In this document: in pieces, positions 1-13,988 of the stretch
Layout: the number at the start of each line of letters is the position of its first letter
How positions within the stretch are numbered: position 1 is the first letter of the stretch
NCBI GenBank assembly: GCA_013696965.1
Contig: JACCXN010000037.1
Location: 1-54,263 of the forward strand
Source of the DNA: Bacteroidota bacterium
Lineage (GTDB): Bacteria; Bacteroidota; Bacteroidia; JACCXN01
DNA length: 54,263 bases
Direction: 5' to 3'
Made by a program: the position numbers and the translations under genes
Notes under the pieces: generated by a model
Database searches by the model: none
What the model saw: the letters and a program-made list of their open reading frames with translations, nothing else
Told to the model about the DNA's origin: nothing

Positions 1-3000
1 AGAGCCTCTTCAGCAGCAGTAGATGGTACTTTTATTTCATTCAAACCAAAATCTGGTTCTGCAGGTTCAGGAAGTAACTTCCTGTTTATTTTTCCATTAG
101 GGGTAAAAGGGAAATTCTCCAGGTTTACAAAATATAAAGGAACCATATATTCAGGAATTTCCTCTAAAAGAAAGGTGCGTAATTCTTTCGTTTCAAAAGA
201 ATTCCCTGTATAATATGCACATAAATATTTACTCCCTGTTTTATCTTCCCTGTCAATAACAATCACTTCTCTAATTCCAGAAAAATTAAGAAGCTTATTT
301 TCTATTTCACCTACTTCAATGCGGTAGCCTCTGATCTTTACCTGGGTATCCATCCTGCCAAAAAACTCTATATTGCCATCCGGTAGCCAGCGAGCTAAAT
401 CACCAGTCCTGTAAACTCTATTACCGGTAGTAAACAAATCAGTAAATTTTTCAGCAGTTAATTCAGGTCTTTTTAAATAAGCTCTGGCAACCCCGGCACC
501 GCCAATACATAATTCTCCCGGAACACCAATTGGCTGAACCTGATCACCTTCTCCAAGAATATACAATTGCGTATTAATATAGGGTTTTCCTATGGGCAAA
601 ACACTTGAAACTGAATCTAAGTCACCTTCAAAAAAGCAGGAATCAATTGTGGCTTCTGTAACTCCATAACTGTTAATTATCCTGAACTTATTATTAAACT
701 GGTTCTTTAGTTTAACAAAGTTTTCTTTACTTAATGTGTCAGAACCAAAAATTAAAATTTTTAAATGATTTAAAGATACTTTTTGCTCCCAGACCTGTTC
801 CATTAAAGGAATAATTAACCCGGGTGTTGATTCAAAAATTGATATTTGATATTTTTCCAAAACCTGGATTAAAGAGGAAATATCTAATCTGAATTCTGCA
901 GGACAAACGATCATTTGTCCTCCATTAACAAAGGATCTTAAAATATCTCCAACAAATACATCGAAAGAAAAACTTGCAAGCTGAAGCAATCTAACATCAA
1001 ACTCATTTAATTTATAATCCTTTTTCCAGGCTAAGGCTATGTTTACTAAACTTCGCTGTTCCACCATTACTCCCTTAGGTTTCCCTGTGGAACCAGAGGT
1101 ATATATTACATACGCAAGATCATGGGCCTTTCTTTCAACAGCGGGAAGAGTTTCAGAACCGGATAAGGAATCAGCAGAGAGATAAATAACTTCTCCTCCA
1201 AAAACAACCTTTTCCTTTAAAGATTCCTGAGTAACTAATATCTGAATTCCGGAATCTGTCAGCATATGGTCTATTCTGTCCAGAGGATATTCAGGATCAA
1301 TAGGAACATAAGCAGCACCGGCTTTCCAAACTCCTAAAATTGAAATGAACATTTCCGGTGTCCGATTCATCATTATACCAACTATATCTTCTTTTTTTAT
1401 TCCTTTCTGAAGAAGAATAGAAGCAAATGAATTTGATTTTTCATCAAGGTCTTTATAAGTAAAATTTTCTTCTGAAGAATTTGCCTGACCAGGAAACGTA
1501 AGCACTGTTTTTTCACCATTTATTTTAACCTGTTCTTCGAAAAGATTAATAACTGTTATATTTTCAGGGATTGGATATAGGGTGTTATTTAAATTATTTA
1601 AAATGAAACTCTTTTCTTCTGAAGAGATAATAGAAATATCACCGATTGGTATATCAGGATCAGCAATTATGGATAAAATAATGTTCTTAAAATGTCCGGA
1701 GAATTTTTCAATTGTTTCTTTTTTAAAGAGACTCAGAGCGTATTCAAAAATGAGCATCATTCGATCAGAGTGCTCCACTACATCTAAAGAAATATCAAAT
1801 TTTGAAATACCTGTGTCTAATGAATACCTGTTGAATTTTACATCCCCGGACTGTAACTCTCCCATTGAATTATCCTGGTAGGCGAACATTGTATCAAACA
1901 GAGGATTTCTGCTCATATCACGCCTCAGGTTCAATTTATCTACTAATGCTTCAAAAGGATAATCCTGATTTTCGTAAGCATTCAGTGTTAAATCTTTTAA
2001 TTCAAAAAGATATTCTCTGAAGGTTTTATTGTTTTCAGGATAGCTTCTTAATGCAAGTGTATTTACAAACATCCCGATCATATCTTGCAGGTCAGGATGC
2101 TTCCTTCCTGCAACAGGCGTTCCTACAACAATGTCTTTTTGGCGGCTGTATTTTGACAGCAAAATATTATAGGCAGCAAGCAAAACCATAAATAAAGTGG
2201 CACCGGTTTCCCTTGTTATTTCCTTAAGTTTTGTTAGCGTCTCTCCATTTAATTCTGTTGAAAAGGTAGATCCTTCAAAACTTTGAACAGCAGGTCGCTT
2301 AAAATCAGTGGGAAGATCAAGTACAGGCACTTCTTCAGAAAACTGATTTAGCCAGAAGACCTCCTGCATTTTAAGTGCATCAGATTGTAAAAATTGCTGC
2401 GTCCAGACCGCATAATCTTTATATTGAATTCTTTGGTCTTCCAATGATTTATCTTCATAAAGCTGCAAAAATTCTCTAACCAATATTTCTGTTGAATAGC
2501 CATCTGAAATGATGTGATGCATATCACATAAAAGCAGGTGATAATCATTAGAAACATTAACAACAGCAACTCTTAATAATGGCGCCTGGCTTAAATCAAA
2601 AGGTTTTATTAATTGAGCAATAACAGATGGAACCTCTTTCTCGGTGCAGTTTAGGAACTGGAATGGAAGCTTCACTTTTTCATTTATGAGCTGCATAGTT
2701 TCCCCATCCACCATTTCAAAGGTTGTTCTTAAAACCTCGTGTCTTTCAAGAAGGGTGCAGAAAACGTGTTTTAATTTTTCCACATCCAAATTACCTTTTA
2801 TAACAAAGGTACCGGGCATATTATATGATGTGGAAGAACTTTCAAATTGAGAAAGCACGAACAATCTCTTTTGAGCAGGGGAGGCAGGGTAATACCTGGC
2901 TGGCTCAGCGGCTTCAATTCTTTTTATATCAGATACTCCCTGTCCTTCGATAAATATTGAAAGTGTACGAATTGTTGGATAATTAAATATTGCCCTCAGC

Positions 3001-6000
3001 GGTACATCAACCTTTAACTTTCTTTGTATCTGAGAAACCAGGATAGTTCCCCTTAAAGAATGACCGCCAATTTCAAAGAAATTATCTGTAACACTTATTT
3101 GTTGAAGGGAAAGAACTTCTTTCCAGATTTCCAGCATTTGCTTTTCGAGCTTTCCTTCTGCTTTGTCAAAATCTTTCGACTTTGAAAGAATTGCAGAAGG
3201 AGCAGGTAATTCTTTTCTGTTAACCTTTCCGTTCTGTGTTAGCGGAATATGCTCCAACTTCACAATATGCGAAGGAACCATATATTCAGGCAGAGATGCA
3301 ATAAGCTCTTGCCTTAAAACAGAAACATCAATATCATTTGATAAAACCACATAAGCACATAAATACTTAAATCCGGTTTTGTCAGCCCTGTCTATAACTA
3401 CCGCTTTTTTCACTGCAGGATTTACATACAGCCAGCTTTCTATTTCACCGAGCTCAATTCTGTATCCGCGAATCTTTACCTGGTGATCAATTCTTCCGAG
3501 ATACTCCAGGTTTCCATCCACAAGCCATCTTGCAAGGTCTCCCGTTCTGTACATTTTTTCTCCTGATCGAAATGGATTGCTGACAAACTTCTCAGCAGTT
3601 AATTCAGGTGATTTTAAATACCCACGGGAAAGTCCTTTACTGTATATACATAATTCTCCGGGTACTCCAACAGGTTGAATATCTCCTGTGGCAGACAAAA
3701 TATAAACTTCTTCATTACAGTGCGGCTTACCTATTTTAACTGCCCCTTCACCAATTCTGTAACTTGTACTCCAGATTGTATCTTCTGTAGGACCATAAAC
3801 ATTATATGCATTTAATTTCGGGTAGGAAGAAATGGTTTTATTAAGGTTTTCAGGAAGAGCTTCGCCACCAACTAAAAGAAAATTTATTTTGTTTAAAAAA
3901 CCCGAACCTCCGGTTTCTAAAAGAACCTGTAAGCGCGATGGCGTTAATTGCAGAACATTTACACCTCCTGAGTTTATTAACTTAATGATAGATTGAGGAT
4001 TTGATGCAACTTCATCTGTGGCAATCTCTACCTTCATCCCTGTAAGCACACTGCAAATAAGCTCCAGAACAGAAATATCAAAAGTTAATGTTGTTAGAGC
4101 CAGTATTGAATCATCCTGAGAAAAACCATATACTTCTGTTAAGTTTGGAAGAAAGCTTAGAACATTTCTATGTTCAATCATTACTCCTTTTGGTTTTCCT
4201 GTAGAACCTGAAGTATATATTATGTAAAGTAGATTTTCCGGGTGATTAACTCTTTTTACATTCCCTGTGCTTTCAACTTTTATTTCAGGATCAGCTATAT
4301 CAACTACTTCACCTTTAAAATTAACTTTATGCTTAAGTGCTGAGGAAGTAACAAGAATTTCAGCCTCACTGTCTGAAAGCATATACTCTATTCTATCTTG
4401 CGGATAAGCCGGATCAACAGGAATATAAGCAGCTCCTGATTTTAAAATCCCCCAGATGGCTACCATCATATCAATGCTTCTCTCAACAAGAAGCCCCACC
4501 ACTTTTTCAGGCGCAGCACCTTTACTTCTTAAAAAGGCAGCAAGCTGATTTGCCCTCTCGTTTAATTGCTGGTAGGTAATTTTGCTTTCTCCACACTTTA
4601 TAAGCTGCCCAGATGATTGCATTATCCTGTTTTCAAAAAAACTGATAATTGTTTCACTATCTCCGATCTTACTCTTAGGTGAAGTATTGAAATCAACAAG
4701 TAATTTATTCCTTTCGCTTTCTGAAAGCAGTTGAATGTCTTTTAATTTAACCGATGCATTTTCAGAAACACTCTCTAAAATATTTTTAAAATGCTCTAAT
4801 AAGCTTACAATGGTTTCTTTATTAAATAAAGCGCTGGCATATTCTGCTTTTACTTCCAGTCCGGAATCTTTCTCAGTTATTTCAAGTGTGAGATCAAATT
4901 TCGCTGTGCCAGCATCAATGTTTAACCTGGAAGTTTGAAGACCTTTAATATTCAAATCTCCTACTTCCATATTTTGAAAAATAAGGACAGTATCAAAAAG
5001 CGGGTTTCGGCTTAAATCTCTTGTTAGATTTAGCTTACTTACAAGATCTTCAATTGGGAAATCCTGGTGCATAAATGCTTCTAATGCGTTGTTCCCTACT
5101 TCAACTAAAAACTGCTTAAAAGTTTTATCTGCTGAGGGAAAATTTCGCATTGCCAGCATATTTATAAAAACACCAACCATTTTCTGCACTTGGGCGTGCG
5201 TTCTGGCTGCTACCGGGCTCCCAACTATTATATCTTCTTGGTTCGAATATCTAGAAAGCAGCACATTATATGCAGAAAGCATCACCATATATAAAGTAGT
5301 ACCTGTATCTGATGCTAAATTTTTTAATTTTGCTACCAGCTCAGAATTTATATTTGAAGTAATAACAGCACCTCTGTGATCCTGAGTTGCCGGCCGGGCA
5401 AAATCTGTGGGAAAGTTTAACACAGGCAGTTCACCTGAATATCGCTCCAGCCAATGTTTCTCCTGCTCAAGAAAATACTCGCTATTAAAATGCTTCTCTT
5501 GCCAGACTGCAAAGTCTTTATAGTCTAAGTTAATTTCAGGAAGTTCAAAACCCTGGTAAAAAGCCGAAAATTCTTCTATGATTATCCCCATAGAAGTACC
5601 ATCTGCTATAATGTGATGTACATCAAACAGCAGCAGGTGATCAGCTTTTCTTTTTACAACTCCTGCTCTAAAAAGCGGCCCTTGAGCAAGGTTATAGGGG
5701 CGAACAAACTTTTTTAGAATCACCCCTATTTCATCGTCTTTAAAAAACTCAAGGGCAAATGGAACGGAAGAATGTACAAACTGCACAGGCCCGTCATTTT
5801 TTACTCCGAATGTTGTTCTGAATATTTCGTGTCTGGCAATCAGCTTTTTAAAAGACTCCTCAAGCTTTGTATAATTAAGATCACCTTTTATTGAAATGGC
5901 ACTGGTAATGTTATAAGCAGTATTATCTTTTTCCAGTTGATCAAGAATAAACAACCTTCTCTGGGCCGATGAAAGAGGATAATAATTTCTCTCAGAAACA

Positions 6001-7973
6001 TTTTCTATAGCAGAAAAAACAGAATTTTTACCTGTGTCAATGTATTTCGCTAGTTTTTGAATGGTAGGGGCTTTAAATACTTCCCGCACGTTAAGCTCAA
6101 CATTAAACTCCTGGAGAATAACAGAAATTAATAAAGCTGCTTTTAAAGAATGTCCACCTAATTCAAAAAAGTTATCGTTAGTTCCAAGCCCTTCAATACC
6201 CAAAACATCTTGCCAGATTTTTACTAGTTTTTCCTCCACCTCATTGGCAGGAAGTATATGTTCCTTTAGAGAAAACTGTTCATACTCCAGTCGCTCTAAA
6301 TGCTGAATCACATCATCAAAAGCTCCGGATTTATAGTGATCACCAAGTTTAAACCTCTGTACCTTTCCACTGGTTGTTTTAGGAATATTATTAACTGGTA
6401 AAACGTGCGTAACCTCAAGGGCTATTTTTTGGCTGATATATGATTTTAGCTTTACAGCAAGTTCAATAAATTGTTCAGACTTTCCCCTGTGCTGTACAAA
6501 TAAAATAATTTCTTCTTTTTGTAATTCCTCATTAGTTGTTCCGAAAGCAACAACCTTTCCCTGCTCCAATTCCTTTAGCTCTTCAGCTATACGCTCAATA
6601 TCGTGTGCATAAAAATTTTGCCCGTTAAAGAATATTACATCTTTTGCCCTTCCGGTAATTACAAGTTCATTATTGGTTAAAAATCCAAGATCACCTGTAT
6701 TTAACCAACCATCTGCTGTTATTAGTGATTCAGTGGCAAGTGCATTATTATAATATCCACCCGTAACATTCTTTCCTTTAATTTGAATTGAACCGACAGT
6801 TCTATCTTCTAAAGGTTGGTTGTTGTAATCGCATATTCTTACATGGCAATCATTTACAGCAGTACCAACCACCATAAAGCCAACAGATTTTTCACGGTCT
6901 GTTATCTCATCGACTTTCTCACCAAAGTTTAATTTGTTTCTATCCAGATAAACAGCCTTATATTCCTTATCAACGGGAGGAAAGGTGACTGCAAGACTTG
7001 CCTCTGCCATGCCATAAACAGGAAACATTGCTTTTTTTTGCAAACCTGTGGATGACAAAACATTCAGAAACTTATCACACAAGGCAACAGATATAGGTTC
7101 TGCGCCATTTAAGATCCTTCTTACGTGAGATAAGTCCCAATCTTTTATTTGATCTTCTTTATAATAGGATAAAAAATGCTTGTAACCAAAGTTTGGCGAG
7201 GCCAAAAAAGTTGCCTTATGTTCATGAACCTTCTTAAGCCACAATGCAGGCTGCCTCACAAATAAATTTGTAGGCATTAATATTTGGTCTATTCCTTTAA
7301 AAAGTGGTGTTAAATGAAAACCAATCAAACCCATATCATGGGTTAGTGGCATCCAGCCAAGGGTAGAATCAGTTTCCCTTAAATCTGAACAGGCAATAAT
7401 TGCCTTTATATTGGTAATTAAATTTTCGTGTGTTAAAACAACACCTTTAGGTTCTCCCGTAGAGCCTGAGGAAAACTGTATAAAAGCAATATCAGCAGGT
7501 TGTGAATTATAAACCTCCCCTTTAGTTTCTGATTTTAAAAGCTCCTCAACAAGAATTGATCTTACAGCCATTTCTTCAACAACATTATTATCTGAAGCAG
7601 TTTTCTCCCTGAATCTTTTTAAAGTGTCATTACTGCAAACTAAAGTAGGGTTCTTTAGAACTTTCCAGATATTTTGAAGTTTAAACCTGCTTTCGGGATT
7701 TACAGCAGGCGCAACAGGAACGGGAATTATACCACCCATTAAACAGGCCCAGAGCGTAATAATAAATTCCTTATTGCTTTCTAACTGAAATACAAGTTCA
7801 TCCTTAGGTTTTATGCCTTTCTCCTGAAGTTTTCCCAGGATAAATTCTGATTTTTCAACTAACTGTTGATAAGATAAGGTTTCAGAAAGCTTGTCTCCAT
7901 CAATAAGTATCACACCCTTTTTTGATTTTCTCTGATTCAGAAAAGAATCAACAAGAGACAAATATTCAATCAT
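1..7973 (-). CDS. Non-ribosomal peptide synthetase, lipopeptide-starting (partial, runs off left edge)
   Basis: The first 2,657 codons are visible, starting at the ATG at 7973-7971; the 3' part lies outside the window. Domains in order (residues): fatty-acyl-AMP ligase-like starter 1-545 (A3 motif SSGSTGEPKG near 165; WMPLTHDMGLIG); acyl carrier about 565-640 (ELGGHSLKA, phosphopantetheine Ser609); condensation about 660-1090 (HHIIADG, His786); adenylation about 1100-1590 (YTSGSTGKPKG near 1250); carrier about 1605-1675 (EIGGHSLRG, Ser1639); condensation about 1690-2125 (HHIISDG, His1819); adenylation about 2130-2630 (YTSGSTGKPKG near 2290); then the start of a third carrier. All visible core motifs look intact. 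Specificity positions aligned by eye to PheA read DILQLGVIWK for the first A domain (close to the known glycine code) and DVGEIGSIDK for the second (the known ornithine code). The inferred growing product is acyl-Gly-Orn on the enzyme. No epimerase, thioesterase, MbtH or PPTase is visible. It is divergent from the peptide exporter, which probably carries its product. Confidence 0.95.
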   Translation of the reverse strand, partial: MIEYLSLVDSFLNQRKSKKGVILIDGDKLSETLSYQQLVEKSEFILGKLQEKGIKPKDELVFQLESNKEFIITLWACLMGGIIPVPVAPAVNPESRFKLQNIWKVLKNPTLVCSNDTLKRFREKTASDNNVVEEMAVRSILVEELLKSETKGEVYNSQPADIAFIQFSSGSTGEPKGVVLTHENLITNIKAIIACSDLRETDSTLGWMPLTHDMGLIGFHLTPLFKGIDQILMPTNLFVRQPALWLKKVHEHKATFLASPNFGYKHFLSYYKEDQIKDWDLSHVRRILNGAEPISVALCDKFLNVLSSTGLQKKAMFPVYGMAEASLAVTFPPVDKEYKAVYLDRNKLNFGEKVDEITDREKSVGFMVVGTAVNDCHVRICDYNNQPLEDRTVGSIQIKGKNVTGGYYNNALATESLITADGWLNTGDLGFLTNNELVITGRAKDVIFFNGQNFYAHDIERIAEELKELEQGKVVAFGTTNEELQKEEIILFVQHRGKSEQFIELAVKLKSYISQKIALEVTHVLPVNNIPKTTSGKVQRFKLGDHYKSGAFDDVIQHLERLEYEQFSLKEHILPANEVEEKLVKIWQDVLGIEGLGTNDNFFELGGHSLKAALLISVILQEFNVELNVREVFKAPTIQKLAKYIDTGKNSVFSAIENVSERNYYPLSSAQRRLFILDQLEKDNTAYNITSAISIKGDLNYTKLEESFKKLIARHEIFRTTFGVKNDGPVQFVHSSVPFALEFFKDDEIGVILKKFVRPYNLAQGPLFRAGVVKRKADHLLLFDVHHIIADGTSMGIIIEEFSAFYQGFELPEINLDYKDFAVWQEKHFNSEYFLEQEKHWLERYSGELPVLNFPTDFARPATQDHRGAVITSNINSELVAKLKNLASDTGTTLYMVMLSAYNVLLSRYSNQEDIIVGSPVAARTHAQVQKMVGVFINMLAMRNFPSADKTFKQFLVEVGNNALEAFMHQDFPIEDLVSKLNLTRDLSRNPLFDTVLIFQNMEVGDLNIKGLQTSRLNIDAGTAKFDLTLEITEKDSGLEVKAEYASALFNKETIVSLLEHFKNILESVSENASVKLKDIQLLSESERNKLLVDFNTSPKSKIGDSETIISFFENRIMQSSGQLIKCGESKITYQQLNERANQLAAFLRSKGAAPEKVVGLLVERSIDMMVAIWGILKSGAAYIPVDPAYPQDRIEYMLSDSEAEILVTSSALKHKVNFKGEVVDIADPEIKVESTGNVKRVNHPENLLYIIYTSGSTGKPKGVMIEHRNVLSFLPNLTEVYGFSQDDSILALTTLTFDISVLELICSVLTGMKVEIATDEVASNPQSIIKLINSGGVNVLQLTPSRLQVLLETGGSGFLNKINFLLVGGEALPENLNKTISSYPKLNAYNVYGPTEDTIWSTSYRIGEGAVKIGKPHCNEEVYILSATGDIQPVGVPGELCIYSKGLSRGYLKSPELTAEKFVSNPFRSGEKMYRTGDLARWLVDGNLEYLGRIDHQVKIRGYRIELGEIESWLYVNPAVKKAVVIDRADKTGFKYLCAYVVLSNDIDVSVLRQELIASLPEYMVPSHIVKLEHIPLTQNGKVNRKELPAPSAILSKSKDFDKAEGKLEKQMLEIWKEVLSLQQISVTDNFFEIGGHSLRGTILVSQIQRKLKVDVPLRAIFNYPTIRTLSIFIEGQGVSDIKRIEAAEPARYYPASPAQKRLFVLSQFESSSTSYNMPGTFVIKGNLDVEKLKHVFCTLLERHEVLRTTFEMVDGETMQLINEKVKLPFQFLNCTEKEVPSVIAQLIKPFDLSQAPLLRVAVVNVSNDYHLLLCDMHHIISDGYSTEILVREFLQLYEDKSLEDQRIQYKDYAVWTQQFLQSDALKMQEVFWLNQFSEEVPVLDLPTDFKRPAVQSFEGSTFSTELNGETLTKLKEITRETGATLFMVLLAAYNILLSKYSRQKDIVVGTPVAGRKHPDLQDMIGMFVNTLALRSYPENNKTFREYLFELKDLTLNAYENQDYPFEALVDKLNLRRDMSRNPLFDTMFAYQDNSMGELQSGDVKFNRYSLDTGISKFDISLDVVEHSDRMMLIFEYALSLFKKETIEKFSGHFKNIILSIIADPDIPIGDISIISSEEKSFILNNLNNTLYPIPENITVINLFEEQVKINGEKTVLTFPGQANSSEENFTYKDLDEKSNSFASILLQKGIKKEDIVGIMMNRTPEMFISILGVWKAGAAYVPIDPEYPLDRIDHMLTDSGIQILVTQESLKEKVVFGGEVIYLSADSLSGSETLPAVERKAHDLAYVIYTSGSTGKPKGVMVEQRSLVNIALAWKKDYKLNEFDVRLLQLASFSFDVFVGDILRSFVNGGQMIVCPAEFRLDISSLIQVLEKYQISIFESTPGLIIPLMEQVWEQKVSLNHLKILIFGSDTLSKENFVKLKNQFNNKFRIINSYGVTEATIDSCFFEGDLDSVSSVLPIGKPYINTQLYILGEGDQVQPIGVPGELCIGGAGVARAYLKRPELTAEKFTDLFTTGNRVYRTGDLARWLPDGNIEFFGRMDTQVKIRGYRIEVGEIENKLLNFSGIREVIVIDREDKTGSKYLCAYYTGNSFETKELRTFLLEEIPEYMVPLYFVNLENFPFTPNGKINRKLLPEPAEPDFGLNEIKVPSTAAEEA

Positions 7974-8045
7974 AAAGCTTAAAAAAAAGAAGATAAATCA
8001 TTTTCACAGTCTGTTTTTTTTTATTATCCCCCCCTGTTCATGGTG

Positions 8046-8076
8046 CAAAGGTAAATTTTCTTAATACCAAAGTCAA
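8046..8076 (-). promoter_or_regulatory. Bacteroidota-type promoter for the NRPS gene
   Basis: On the minus strand the -7 box TAccTTTG (8053-8046) has a TTG -33 box at 8076-8074, with a 20-bp gap. This matches the Bacteroidota primary sigma consensus (TTG, 19-21 bp, TAnnTTTG). It would give a leader of about 65 nt before the NRPS start at 7973. Confidence 0.6.
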
Positions 8077-8130
8077 CCAAAACTTTAAAATTAAATTAAC
8101 ATTTTATCATCGGGCTTTTCTAATTAAAAT

Positions 8131-8138
8131 TATCTTTG
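8131..8138 (+). promoter_or_regulatory. Bacteroidota -7 box for the ABC exporter
   Basis: TAtcTTTG, an exact match to TAnnTTTG, lies 19 bp before the ATG at 8157. No clear -33 TTG is seen. The TTG inside this box could be read as a start codon at 8136, but its place in the promoter argues for the ATG at 8157. Confidence 0.5.
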
Positions 8139-8156
8139 CGTCAATACATTTTTTTA

Positions 8157-9770
8157 ATGAGATTAATTGGATTCCTAAGAAAAGAGGCCGGAACAGCAGG
8201 ATATTTATACTTAATTCTTGGTTTAATTTCAGGCTTTGCAAATGCATCTATAATTAAATTTATAGATTTTTTTGTAAATGAAGTAATTAACAAAAAGGGC
8301 ATAAATGAAGCAACAGAAAAGTATATTTTAATTTTCTTAGGCATTCTTATTACATTTTTTGTTTGCCAGAGAATATTTTCAAAATACCTTATTGGTCTGA
8401 CGCAAAACATTATTTTAAAAACCAGGTTGTCCATCCTGGAGGCCATACGCAATACCGATTATATACATTTTCAGCAGATAGGAAAAGAAAAAGTTTTCAC
8501 CTCCCTTACTCAAGACACAGAAAAAATAAGCAATGCCGCTGCTTCCATTGTATATGCAACAACCTATCTTGTTACGGTACTTTTTTGTCTTTCTTACCTT
8601 GCCTATGTTTCCCTGATTGGATTTGCCCTTACCCTTGGAATTATCAGTTTGGGAATAATAATTTATTCTGTAAGACAAAATAAAATCCACGCAGCCCTTA
8701 CTGAGGCACGTGACCTACAAAACCAGTTGTTTAAAAATATTGATGAACTTTTATCCGGTTTTAAGGAAGTAAAAATGAGCAAAGAGAAAAATGATGATCT
8801 TTTCAAAAACCACATAGAATCAACAGGTATTAAAACAAAACACCTGGCTTCTAAAGCCATTATAAGCTACCTGGATAACAGCATTACCGGGCAATTCTTC
8901 TTTTTCGTGCTTATAGGGTTTATCCTGTTTTACTTTCCTGCTTTAACTGGTAACAATGAGGTTGTGATAAGTTATATTTTTATTATTCTTTATATGCTTG
9001 GACCTATAGAGGGATTAATGGCCGTGGTTCCTGCGATTACCCAAGCAGATATTGCCCTTGACAGGATAGCTGAACTCAAACAGAAAACAGAATATTTTAA
9101 AAAATCAGAAATGGTTTTAGATAACACTTTTACTGACTTTAAAAGTTTATCTTTTAATAATATAAGTTTTTCTTATCCTGAGAAAAAAGCTGAAAAATTT
9201 TCTGTTGGCCCTGTTGATCTTAACATTAACAAAGGTGAAATTGTATTTATTGTTGGAGGTAACGGAAGCGGCAAAACAACCTTTTTTAAATTACTTACCG
9301 GTCTTTATAAACCAGACAGCGGATCATTGCAGGTAAACAATGAGCAGGTTGTTTCATCTGAAAAATACCGTGATTTATTTTCTGCCATTTACAGTGATTT
9401 TTACCTGTTTGAGAAGTTCTACGGGATGAAAAACATAAATGAAACTAAAGTAAATGAATACCTTGAGCTTATGCAGCTTTCCGATAAAGTTAAGTTTGAA
9501 AACGGCAGGTTCAGCAAAACAGATCTTTCAACCGGGCAAAGAAAAAGACTGGCAATGATTCTTAGCTTACTTGAAGATAAACCTATTTTAGTTTTAGATG
9601 AATGGGCAGCAGACCAGGATCCGAAATTCAGGCAATTCTTTTACCAGGACCTTCTACCCCGCCTTAAAAACCAAGGTAAAACTATAATTGCCATTACTCA
9701 TGACGATAAGTATTTTTCAGTTGCTGATAATATTTATAAGATGGAATATGGGAAGTTTGAAAAGTTTTAG
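8157..9770 (+). CDS. Cyclic-peptide/lipopeptide export ABC transporter (SyrD/PvdE type, fused permease-ATPase)
   Basis: A 537-residue half-transporter of the family that exports siderophore precursors and lipopeptides. Residues 1 to about 310 carry roughly six hydrophobic membrane segments (for example residues 14-30, 55-75, 125-170, 245-290). The C-terminal ATPase has Walker A GGNGSGKTT, signature LSTGQRKRLAM, and Walker B followed by DEWAADQDP, a sequence typical of this family, then the switch ITHDD. The length is normal. I chose ATG 8157 because an upstream TTG falls inside the -7 promoter box. It is divergent from the NRPS gene across a 183-bp gap, so export of that peptide is the natural inference; the substrate itself is not shown by the sequence. 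Confidence 0.93.
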   Translation: MRLIGFLRKEAGTAGYLYLILGLISGFANASIIKFIDFFVNEVINKKGINEATEKYILIFLGILITFFVCQRIFSKYLIGLTQNIILKTRLSILEAIRNTDYIHFQQIGKEKVFTSLTQDTEKISNAAASIVYATTYLVTVLFCLSYLAYVSLIGFALTLGIISLGIIIYSVRQNKIHAALTEARDLQNQLFKNIDELLSGFKEVKMSKEKNDDLFKNHIESTGIKTKHLASKAIISYLDNSITGQFFFFVLIGFILFYFPALTGNNEVVISYIFIILYMLGPIEGLMAVVPAITQADIALDRIAELKQKTEYFKKSEMVLDNTFTDFKSLSFNNISFSYPEKKAEKFSVGPVDLNINKGEIVFIVGGNGSGKTTFFKLLTGLYKPDSGSLQVNNEQVVSSEKYRDLFSAIYSDFYLFEKFYGMKNINETKVNEYLELMQLSDKVKFENGRFSKTDLSTGQRKRLAMILSLLEDKPILVLDEWAADQDPKFRQFFYQDLLPRLKNQGKTIIAITHDDKYFSVADNIYKMEYGKFEKF

Positions 9771-12572: not shown

Positions 12573-13988
12573 TTAAATTCCCGCCATTTGATTTTTAAAC
12601 ACTGCGTTTCTCTTTTTTAAAAGGGAATTGCATAGGTTGTTTTTTTTCCATTCTTCAATGTCTTTTACAGTACAGTTCCCAATAGCGGCATTCACTTCTT
12701 TTATTGACAAGCTTGATGTAAAAGCTGGAATTATAAGCACTAAATCGGTTATTCCACTCATGGGGTTTTTGCTCAGTTCGTTTTTGTACTTCCCAAAGGT
12801 TGTCTCAATTATATCAGAGCAGCACAATACCTTTTCTTCCCTCTTACTTATTTGTTTTGCATTTTCTTTTAAGTAGAGTAATATGTATTGCTTAAATTGT
12901 TTCAGTTTTCCTGCTTTGCAATTCTTTAATATAGAGATGCATTTTGATTTTGTTTTCTTGCTTAACCCTTCGTTCTTAAGGATTATGGATATTTTTTCTA
13001 CCATTGACATCAATGCGTCCATTTCAATAATAAACCTTTCCTTTTCTTTTACCCATTGCAGTTGTACCTGTTCTTCTATTAATATATCATTGCGGCCCAG
13101 AGCCAATAAAGCTTTTATTCCCCATTTGCTTATGGTGTCGATATTTAAGAATCGTGCCTTAGAGCGTTGGTTTGGAGGAATCAAGTGAGCATTTTTGCTG
13201 CAACAAAGTTTAAATCTCATTTGTCCTGCTTTGCTTGCATAATCCTTAAAATCAGCATCATTTTTATACAGCCTTTCTAAGGCTAATGCTATTGCATGTG
13301 TAATGTCATACACATGATTGATTTTAGCCTTCTTTAGTCCACTTTTTAAGGTGCTGCCGGCATCTGTAACCACATAAATAACAGTCCCAAGTTTTTGTTT
13401 AACGATTTCCAGCTCATTAGCAATGTCTTCTCCAGTCCATCGTTCCTTTGATTTTACTACAATTGGCTTCATGTCTTGCAGCTTTAAAGGACGTGTAAAG
13501 TCTATTTTGCTCCTTCTGATACATAGGATCACAAGCACTTTTTCCTGGCCAATACCAATACTCTCATCTGCTATAATGATCCAATCATCCGCTTTTTCTT
13601 TGGGATACTCCAATTGACTGTATCCAATTTTCTTTACCCAAAGCATTGCTGTAGAAAACGATGGAGTGGATCGCGTGATATCTAAATACAAATTAAATGC
13701 AACGAAGACCTTACTCAAGCTACGAAACTACTTGATGTATTGATTTTAGCGGACAATATTAAATGTATAACCCCAGTACTGTAATGTGAGCGCCTAGATT
13801 TTTCTTTATTTAGAATCCTATTATCTTCTGGAGGTTTTTTTTAGCGTAGCAAATTCTTTGCTCAATTTATCTAAGTTGGTCTTATGCTTTACGGCTTTTA
13901 CTTTCCAACTATCTCTACTAATGCTTACTTCTTTGATCTTTTTTTTTAATCGCTTGCCGGTCTCTACAATTACCCCGGAATAAATTCA
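12573..13988 (-). pseudogene. Broken DDE-type transposase
   Basis: The main open part (12573 to about 13720) holds the catalytic core: IIADESIGIGQEK (first Asp), VVTDAGSTLKSGL (second Asp) and SDIIETTFGKYKN (Glu). Upstream in the same direction two further fragments belong to it. The first is a basic coiled-coil, ETGKRLKKKIKEV to KKTSRR, at about 13835-13988, ending at stop codons. The second reads RSHYSTGVIHLILSAK to SSFV, near 13730-13800, in a frame that joins the core if one base is restored near 13725. So the gene has at least one frameshift and several stop codons. Its only usable start for the core is a TTG. No terminal inverted repeats or target duplications could be found by eye. The IS family was not assigned. 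Confidence 0.8.

Follow-up and report, generated by a model that had tools for sequence, protein, structure and literature searches.

FAAL-started lipopeptides from Bacteroidota are barely characterised. Corramycin is a myxobacterial product (Corallococcus). It is the one Bacteroidetes compound given in table 2 of a review of FAAL-initiated NRPS lines (PMC11837247), in which C-A-T modules come after an N-terminal FAAL with its fused carrier domain. Chitinophaga provides two further comparisons. The chitinopeptins are cyclic lipodepsipeptides of 14-15 residues (PMC9248904), and their clusters open with a C-starter domain, one of them with a PKS module. The same genus has yielded an acyl-Gly-Ser-Orn lipid family (PMC8433624), whose Gly, Gly-Ser and Gly-Ser-Orn lipoamino acids are membrane-type lipids carrying one, two or three residues.

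The window considered here, 54,263 bases long, is the whole of contig C37 of a Bacteroidota genome. I propose that a single large lipopeptide cluster very likely begins in it, with an exporter, a loading module and extension modules one and two, and continues on a second contig, C22. The line predicted from the two contigs begins as the FAAL-initiated lines do, with an N-terminal FAAL, a carrier and then C-A-T modules, but it differs from them in lineage, residue order and length. With the chitinopeptins it has in common the phylum, a similar length and a long NRPS lipopeptide line with a TE. Its residues differ from theirs as far as the codes tell, however, and membership in that family was rejected on finding FAAL-T in place of the C-starter. 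The lipoamino acids likewise carry a fatty acyl amide on Gly, and Orn in the chain, but the line here is a multimodular NRPS of at least 13 modules. The cluster is an orphan, of a kind (FAAL-initiated NRPS lipopeptide lines) that is already known.

The first NRPS subunit

The first subunit, g1 (3..7973, - strand), is organised FAAL-T-C-A-T-C-A and is visible for 2657 aa. Its domains were assigned from Pfam, NCBIfam and local HMMs, and Pfam by itself accounts for both C domains, all three AMP-binding domains and two PP-binding domains of the frame. The protein opens with a FAAL starter domain (6294..7973, aa 1-560) and a predicted acyl-loading carrier with the motif GGHSL (6039..6245, aa 577-645; PF00550 and local HMM). 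There follow condensation domain 1, C1 (4698..5984, aa 664-1092; Pfam/HMM, motif HHIIADG), which would pass the acyl chain to residue 1, adenylation domain 1, A1 (3189..4598, aa 1126-1595), whose best PDB match is LgrA, and carrier domain 1, again with GGHSL (2949..3155, aa 1607-1675; HMM and motif). The visible part closes with condensation domain 2, C2 (1599..2894, aa 1694-2125; Pfam/HMM, motif HHIISDG), and adenylation domain 2, A2 (54..1481, aa 2165-2640). All lie on the - strand, and the catalytic motifs (HHIIADG, HHIISDG and both copies of GGHSL) are undamaged.

The original prediction had described an NRPS with a divergent exporter. Both are real, and their parts were rightly read, but their extent was misjudged. 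It had also called the NRPS gene incomplete. The frame is indeed open at its 3' end, and more than the choice of window lies behind this: contig C37 itself stops at base 1, so that the 3' end of the gene is lost.

Specificity codes were obtained from a scripted multiple alignment of all 12 A domains (those of g1 and of C22), from which the ten positions were extracted. For A1 and A2 the script returned DILQLGVIWK and DVGEIGSIDK, exactly the codes that had earlier been read by hand, and by published codes they specify Gly and Orn. DILQLGVI is the eight-residue code of NcmD, given as Gly in agreement with the structure of nocamycin (PMC5466765), DILQLGMIWK represents a Gly code family (PMC12283262), and DVGEIGSIDK has been read as Orn (PMC3992020). 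A literature search with the code DILQLGLIWK found no match. Judged by these codes, the chain very probably starts with glycine, followed by ornithine.

The remainder of the assembly line

The genome is rated 100% complete, and searches with PF00668 and TIGR01733 place its C domains on C37 and C22 only. These are also its only contigs with multimodular A domains. C22 is 50,897 bases long and starts in mid-module, with an A-T linker, a T domain (GGDSI) and an E domain (motifs EGHGRE, TVGWFTS and NYLGQF). The C domain that comes next opens with LSLMQEGMLFHALL, which is of the D-accepting type. Ten A domains beyond the two of g1 are found on C22. Subunit g3 (C22 1651-18672, 5673 aa) contains this C domain along with five A domains, g4 (C22 18673-24324, 1883 aa) has two, and g5 (C22 24363-36917, 4184 aa) consists of a KS, a remnant AT, an ACP, three C-A-T modules and a TE. 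A PLP dehydratase-like gene (C22 36953-37900), a type II thioesterase (C22 40277-41002) and a PPTase (C22 40987-41664) complete the set.

How are the two contigs related? The gene g1 runs off base 1 of C37, and base 1 of C22 lies within a module read in the same direction. The exporter stands at the C37 end of the line, and the TE, type II TE and PPTase stand at the C22 end. Orientation and content thus fit one cluster, running from exporter to PPTase. Both contigs are otherwise ordinary chromosomal sequence. Their ends show no exact overlap of nine bases or more, sharing only an 11-mer that is internal, where C37 ends, and no bridging copy of the start of C22 was found elsewhere in the genome. 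Compared over 50 bases, the end of C37 and the start of C22 are identical at 29 positions and belong to distinct A-T linkers, which implies that at least a T-C-A, about 3 kb, has been lost between them. C22 almost certainly carries the rest of the cluster begun by g1, beyond this missing sequence.

Some parts of C22 are unusual. The KS of g5 retains its Cys-His-His triad, and the AT remnant beside it has GIGLGR in place of GHSxG and no Pfam AT match. This KS-AT remnant-ACP segment (C22:24363-26900; L046:1-2550), in the middle of an NRPS line, would either need an AT in trans or be silent. The second C domain of g5 (about C22:30024-31328) has the core HHIINDE instead of HHxxxDG. The PLP-dependent serine/threonine dehydratase-like gene at C22:36953-37900, directly after the NRPS genes, scores under all curated NCBIfam cut-offs. 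It may supply or modify a residue.

The predicted product

The codes of g3 are DVQTISQVVK, DVDEWGGITK, DSHQKTSLTK, DAFWGGFTFK and DFWNIGMVHK, those of g4 are DFWNIGMVHK and DAIFNGNCVK, and those of g5 are DAWFLGNVVK, DGTKMGHIGK and DMTQLGVTWK. I know of no code that matches DVQTISQVVK, DVDEWGGITK, DSHQKTSLTK, DAFWGGFTFK or DAIFNGNCVK. The third A domain of g3 (C22:9361-10557), which has the odd code DSHQKTSLTK, also has the lowest family score in the line. DFWNIGMVHK is a code for Thr, and DAWFLGNVVK is the most frequent code for Leu. DGTKMGHIGK has 7 of 10 positions in common with DLTKVGHVGK, the Asp/Asn code (PMC12283262). In all, five of the 12 A-domain codes are exact or near-exact matches to published ones, and substrates other than those of exact matches are putative.

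Synthesis would begin with the FAAL adenylating a free fatty acid and loading it onto the first T domain. C1 would then couple the acyl chain to Gly, and C2 the acyl-Gly to Orn. The line would go on past the assembly gap, through at least one T-C-A, to the T-E of C22, giving one D-residue, and thence to the next subunits of C22: a D-accepting C domain with five A domains, two A domains, and finally KS-dead AT-ACP-(C-A-T)x3-TE. The chain predicted in this way is acyl-Gly-Orn-(D-X, at least one, missing)-X-(basic?)-X-(aliphatic?)-Thr-Thr-X-(possible C2 unit)-Leu-(Asp-like)-(Gly-like). If one module is missing, then the chain has 13 residues. If g1 continues to C22, with its E domain, ten A domains, KS module, TE, type II TE and PPTase, then Gly-Orn is only the N-terminal end of a lipopeptide of at least 13 residues. 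The TE would release the chain and probably cyclise it, and the TE, the class of the exporter and the length would together fit a cyclic lipodepsipeptide. Any bioactivity of the product I can only infer. The readable codes (Gly, Orn, two Thr, Leu) provide a target for mass spectrometry.

Exporter, intergenic region and neighbouring genes

The gene divergent from g1 (8157..9770, + strand; the frame opens at 8136 and its first ATG is at 8157) encodes a PvdE/SyrD-type cyclic peptide export ABC transporter, as had been predicted. It scores 389.5 bits against TIGR01194, above the curated cut-off of 286.2, and matches PF00005 and PF00664. As in SyrD and PvdE, membrane and ATPase domains are fused and the gene adjoins an NRPS gene. 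From the divergent neighbourhood alone, this transporter would export the NRPS product.

The consensus promoter of Bacteroidota is TTTG/TTG-N19-21-TAnnTTTG. TAnnTTTG occurs on each strand of the 187-base stretch between the NRPS and exporter genes, as it does on both strands in 2.2% of shuffles. Towards the NRPS gene there is a candidate Bacteroidota-type -7 element, TACCTTTG (8046..8053, - strand), with TTG 20 bases upstream, and towards the exporter gene there is a weak candidate, TATCTTTG (8131..8138, + strand), both recognised by pattern only. The pair is weakly compatible with divergent co-expression. To the right of 9770, the genes of the window look like housekeeping genes. A frame at 12573-13718, beside the cluster, resembles all or part of a transposase.

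Exporters of the PvdE type also carry siderophore precursors, which raises the possibility that the product is a lipopeptide siderophore. The Orn and Asp-like codes of this line call for residues that are common iron ligands, and chitinopeptins are themselves iron-binding (PMC9248904). The genes beside each half of the cluster, on C37 and on C22, were read with this in mind, but none of them could be recognised as an ornithine or aspartate hydroxylase, a TonB receptor or a ferric reductase: on the one side stand the housekeeping-like genes, and on the other, after the TE, the dehydratase-like gene, the type II TE and the PPTase. A siderophore is improbable.

The starter and lipidation

The best solved relatives of the starter domain are McyG (the single best), two chains of one NRPS (6ulw and 6ulx) and FAALs. 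McyG is not a fatty-acid enzyme but loads a phenylpropanoid-like carboxylic acid. If the starter here did likewise, loading a phenylpropanoid or a similar non-fatty acid, then the product would be no lipopeptide. Since the best solved relative leaves that question, the FAAL-specific insertion was examined. It is present: the segment AVTFPPVDKEYKAVYLDRNKLNFGEKVDEITDREKSV aligns nearly gap-free to the FAAL of E. coli (3pbk), and the region also aligns closely to FadD32 (5d6j, VDRDQLNSG...), whereas McyG (4r0m) aligns without about 21 residues at this place. A non-fatty starter is therefore decidedly unlikely, and N-terminal lipidation by a fatty-acyl starter, claimed from the outset, is well supported by these alignments. 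The FAAL, complete with its insertion, is followed immediately by a carrier domain and then by C-A-T, the architecture of FAAL-initiated NRPSs.

Relatives of this FAAL at E <= 1e-90 occur in 3 other genomes of the 395 sampled from the class. They are 43-46% identical to it, and each heads a different cluster. Nothing corresponding to the entire cluster turned up in the 60 nearest genomes, in the 395 genomes of the class or in a scan of GTDB contigs, which returned distant NRPSs only. Neither the FAAL nor the cluster has a relative in the two other genomes of the same family, both of which are incomplete.

The original prediction saw in the locus an NRPS-based path to an acyl-Gly-Orn head, which it set beside the acyl-Gly-Ser and ornithine lipids of Bacteroidota. 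The long line with its TE on C22 goes against this comparison. In addition, acyl-Gly-Ser-Orn lipids are already known from Chitinophaga (PMC8433624), so acylated Gly and Orn are not in themselves new to Bacteroidota. A pathway to a short acyl-amino-acid lipid, which would have one to three residues and lack a long NRPS, was rejected, given the join, in view of ten more A domains and a far TE on C22. It is true that g1 is visible only as far as its second A domain and that acyl lipids bearing Gly and Orn are known in the phylum (PMC8433624), but an NRPS-made acyl-Gly-Orn(-X) lipid, with g1 ending soon after A2 in a release domain of its own and C22 a separate cluster, is most unlikely, for C22 begins in mid-module and in the right direction, it lacks its own start, the genome has no third NRPS contig from which the upstream part could come, and the exporter is on one contig while the TE, type II TE and PPTase are on the other.

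Subunit junctions

At the junction of g3 and g4 (C22:18600-19450), g3 ends in a full C domain with the tail SFDFNF, and of the C domain that heads g4 only the C-terminal half is there (model positions of about 220-432, no HHxxxDG), followed by an A domain. The same layout occurs in genomes G289 and G343 and in Aquimarina pacifica, in the last with one gene between. The tails at the very end of subunits that precede half C domains are FDFNF, FNFNF, SFNF, DFSF, NFSF and DFGF. In a tally of Bacteroidota junctions, F-x-F stands at the very end in 8/9 cases where a half C domain comes next, as against 0/8 C-ending subunits where it does not (Fisher p 0.0004, or 0.0014 leaving out a near relative, G446). 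The motif was picked after the first four junctions had been seen, and the later independent cases (3/4 against 0/4) give p 0.14, which makes the support no more than suggestive.

For NRPSs, a review published in 2021 recognises the docking-domain classes COM, PAX and beta-hairpin (PMC9113145), and the part of the literature that could be searched yielded nothing relevant on docking by half or truncated C domains. There is perhaps an even chance, judging from these sequences, that in this line and in several other NRPSs of Bacteroidota the break between subunits falls inside a module, after C and before A, and is bridged by a docking pair not yet described: the F-x-F tail and the half C domain fused to the next A domain. 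If so, the pair would be a new tool to split and recombine NRPSs at the C-A junction.

Junctions with a full C domain and F-x-F tail next to a half C domain lie at loci L009 and L045, and also at L076, L078, L106, L108, L131, L061 and L027.
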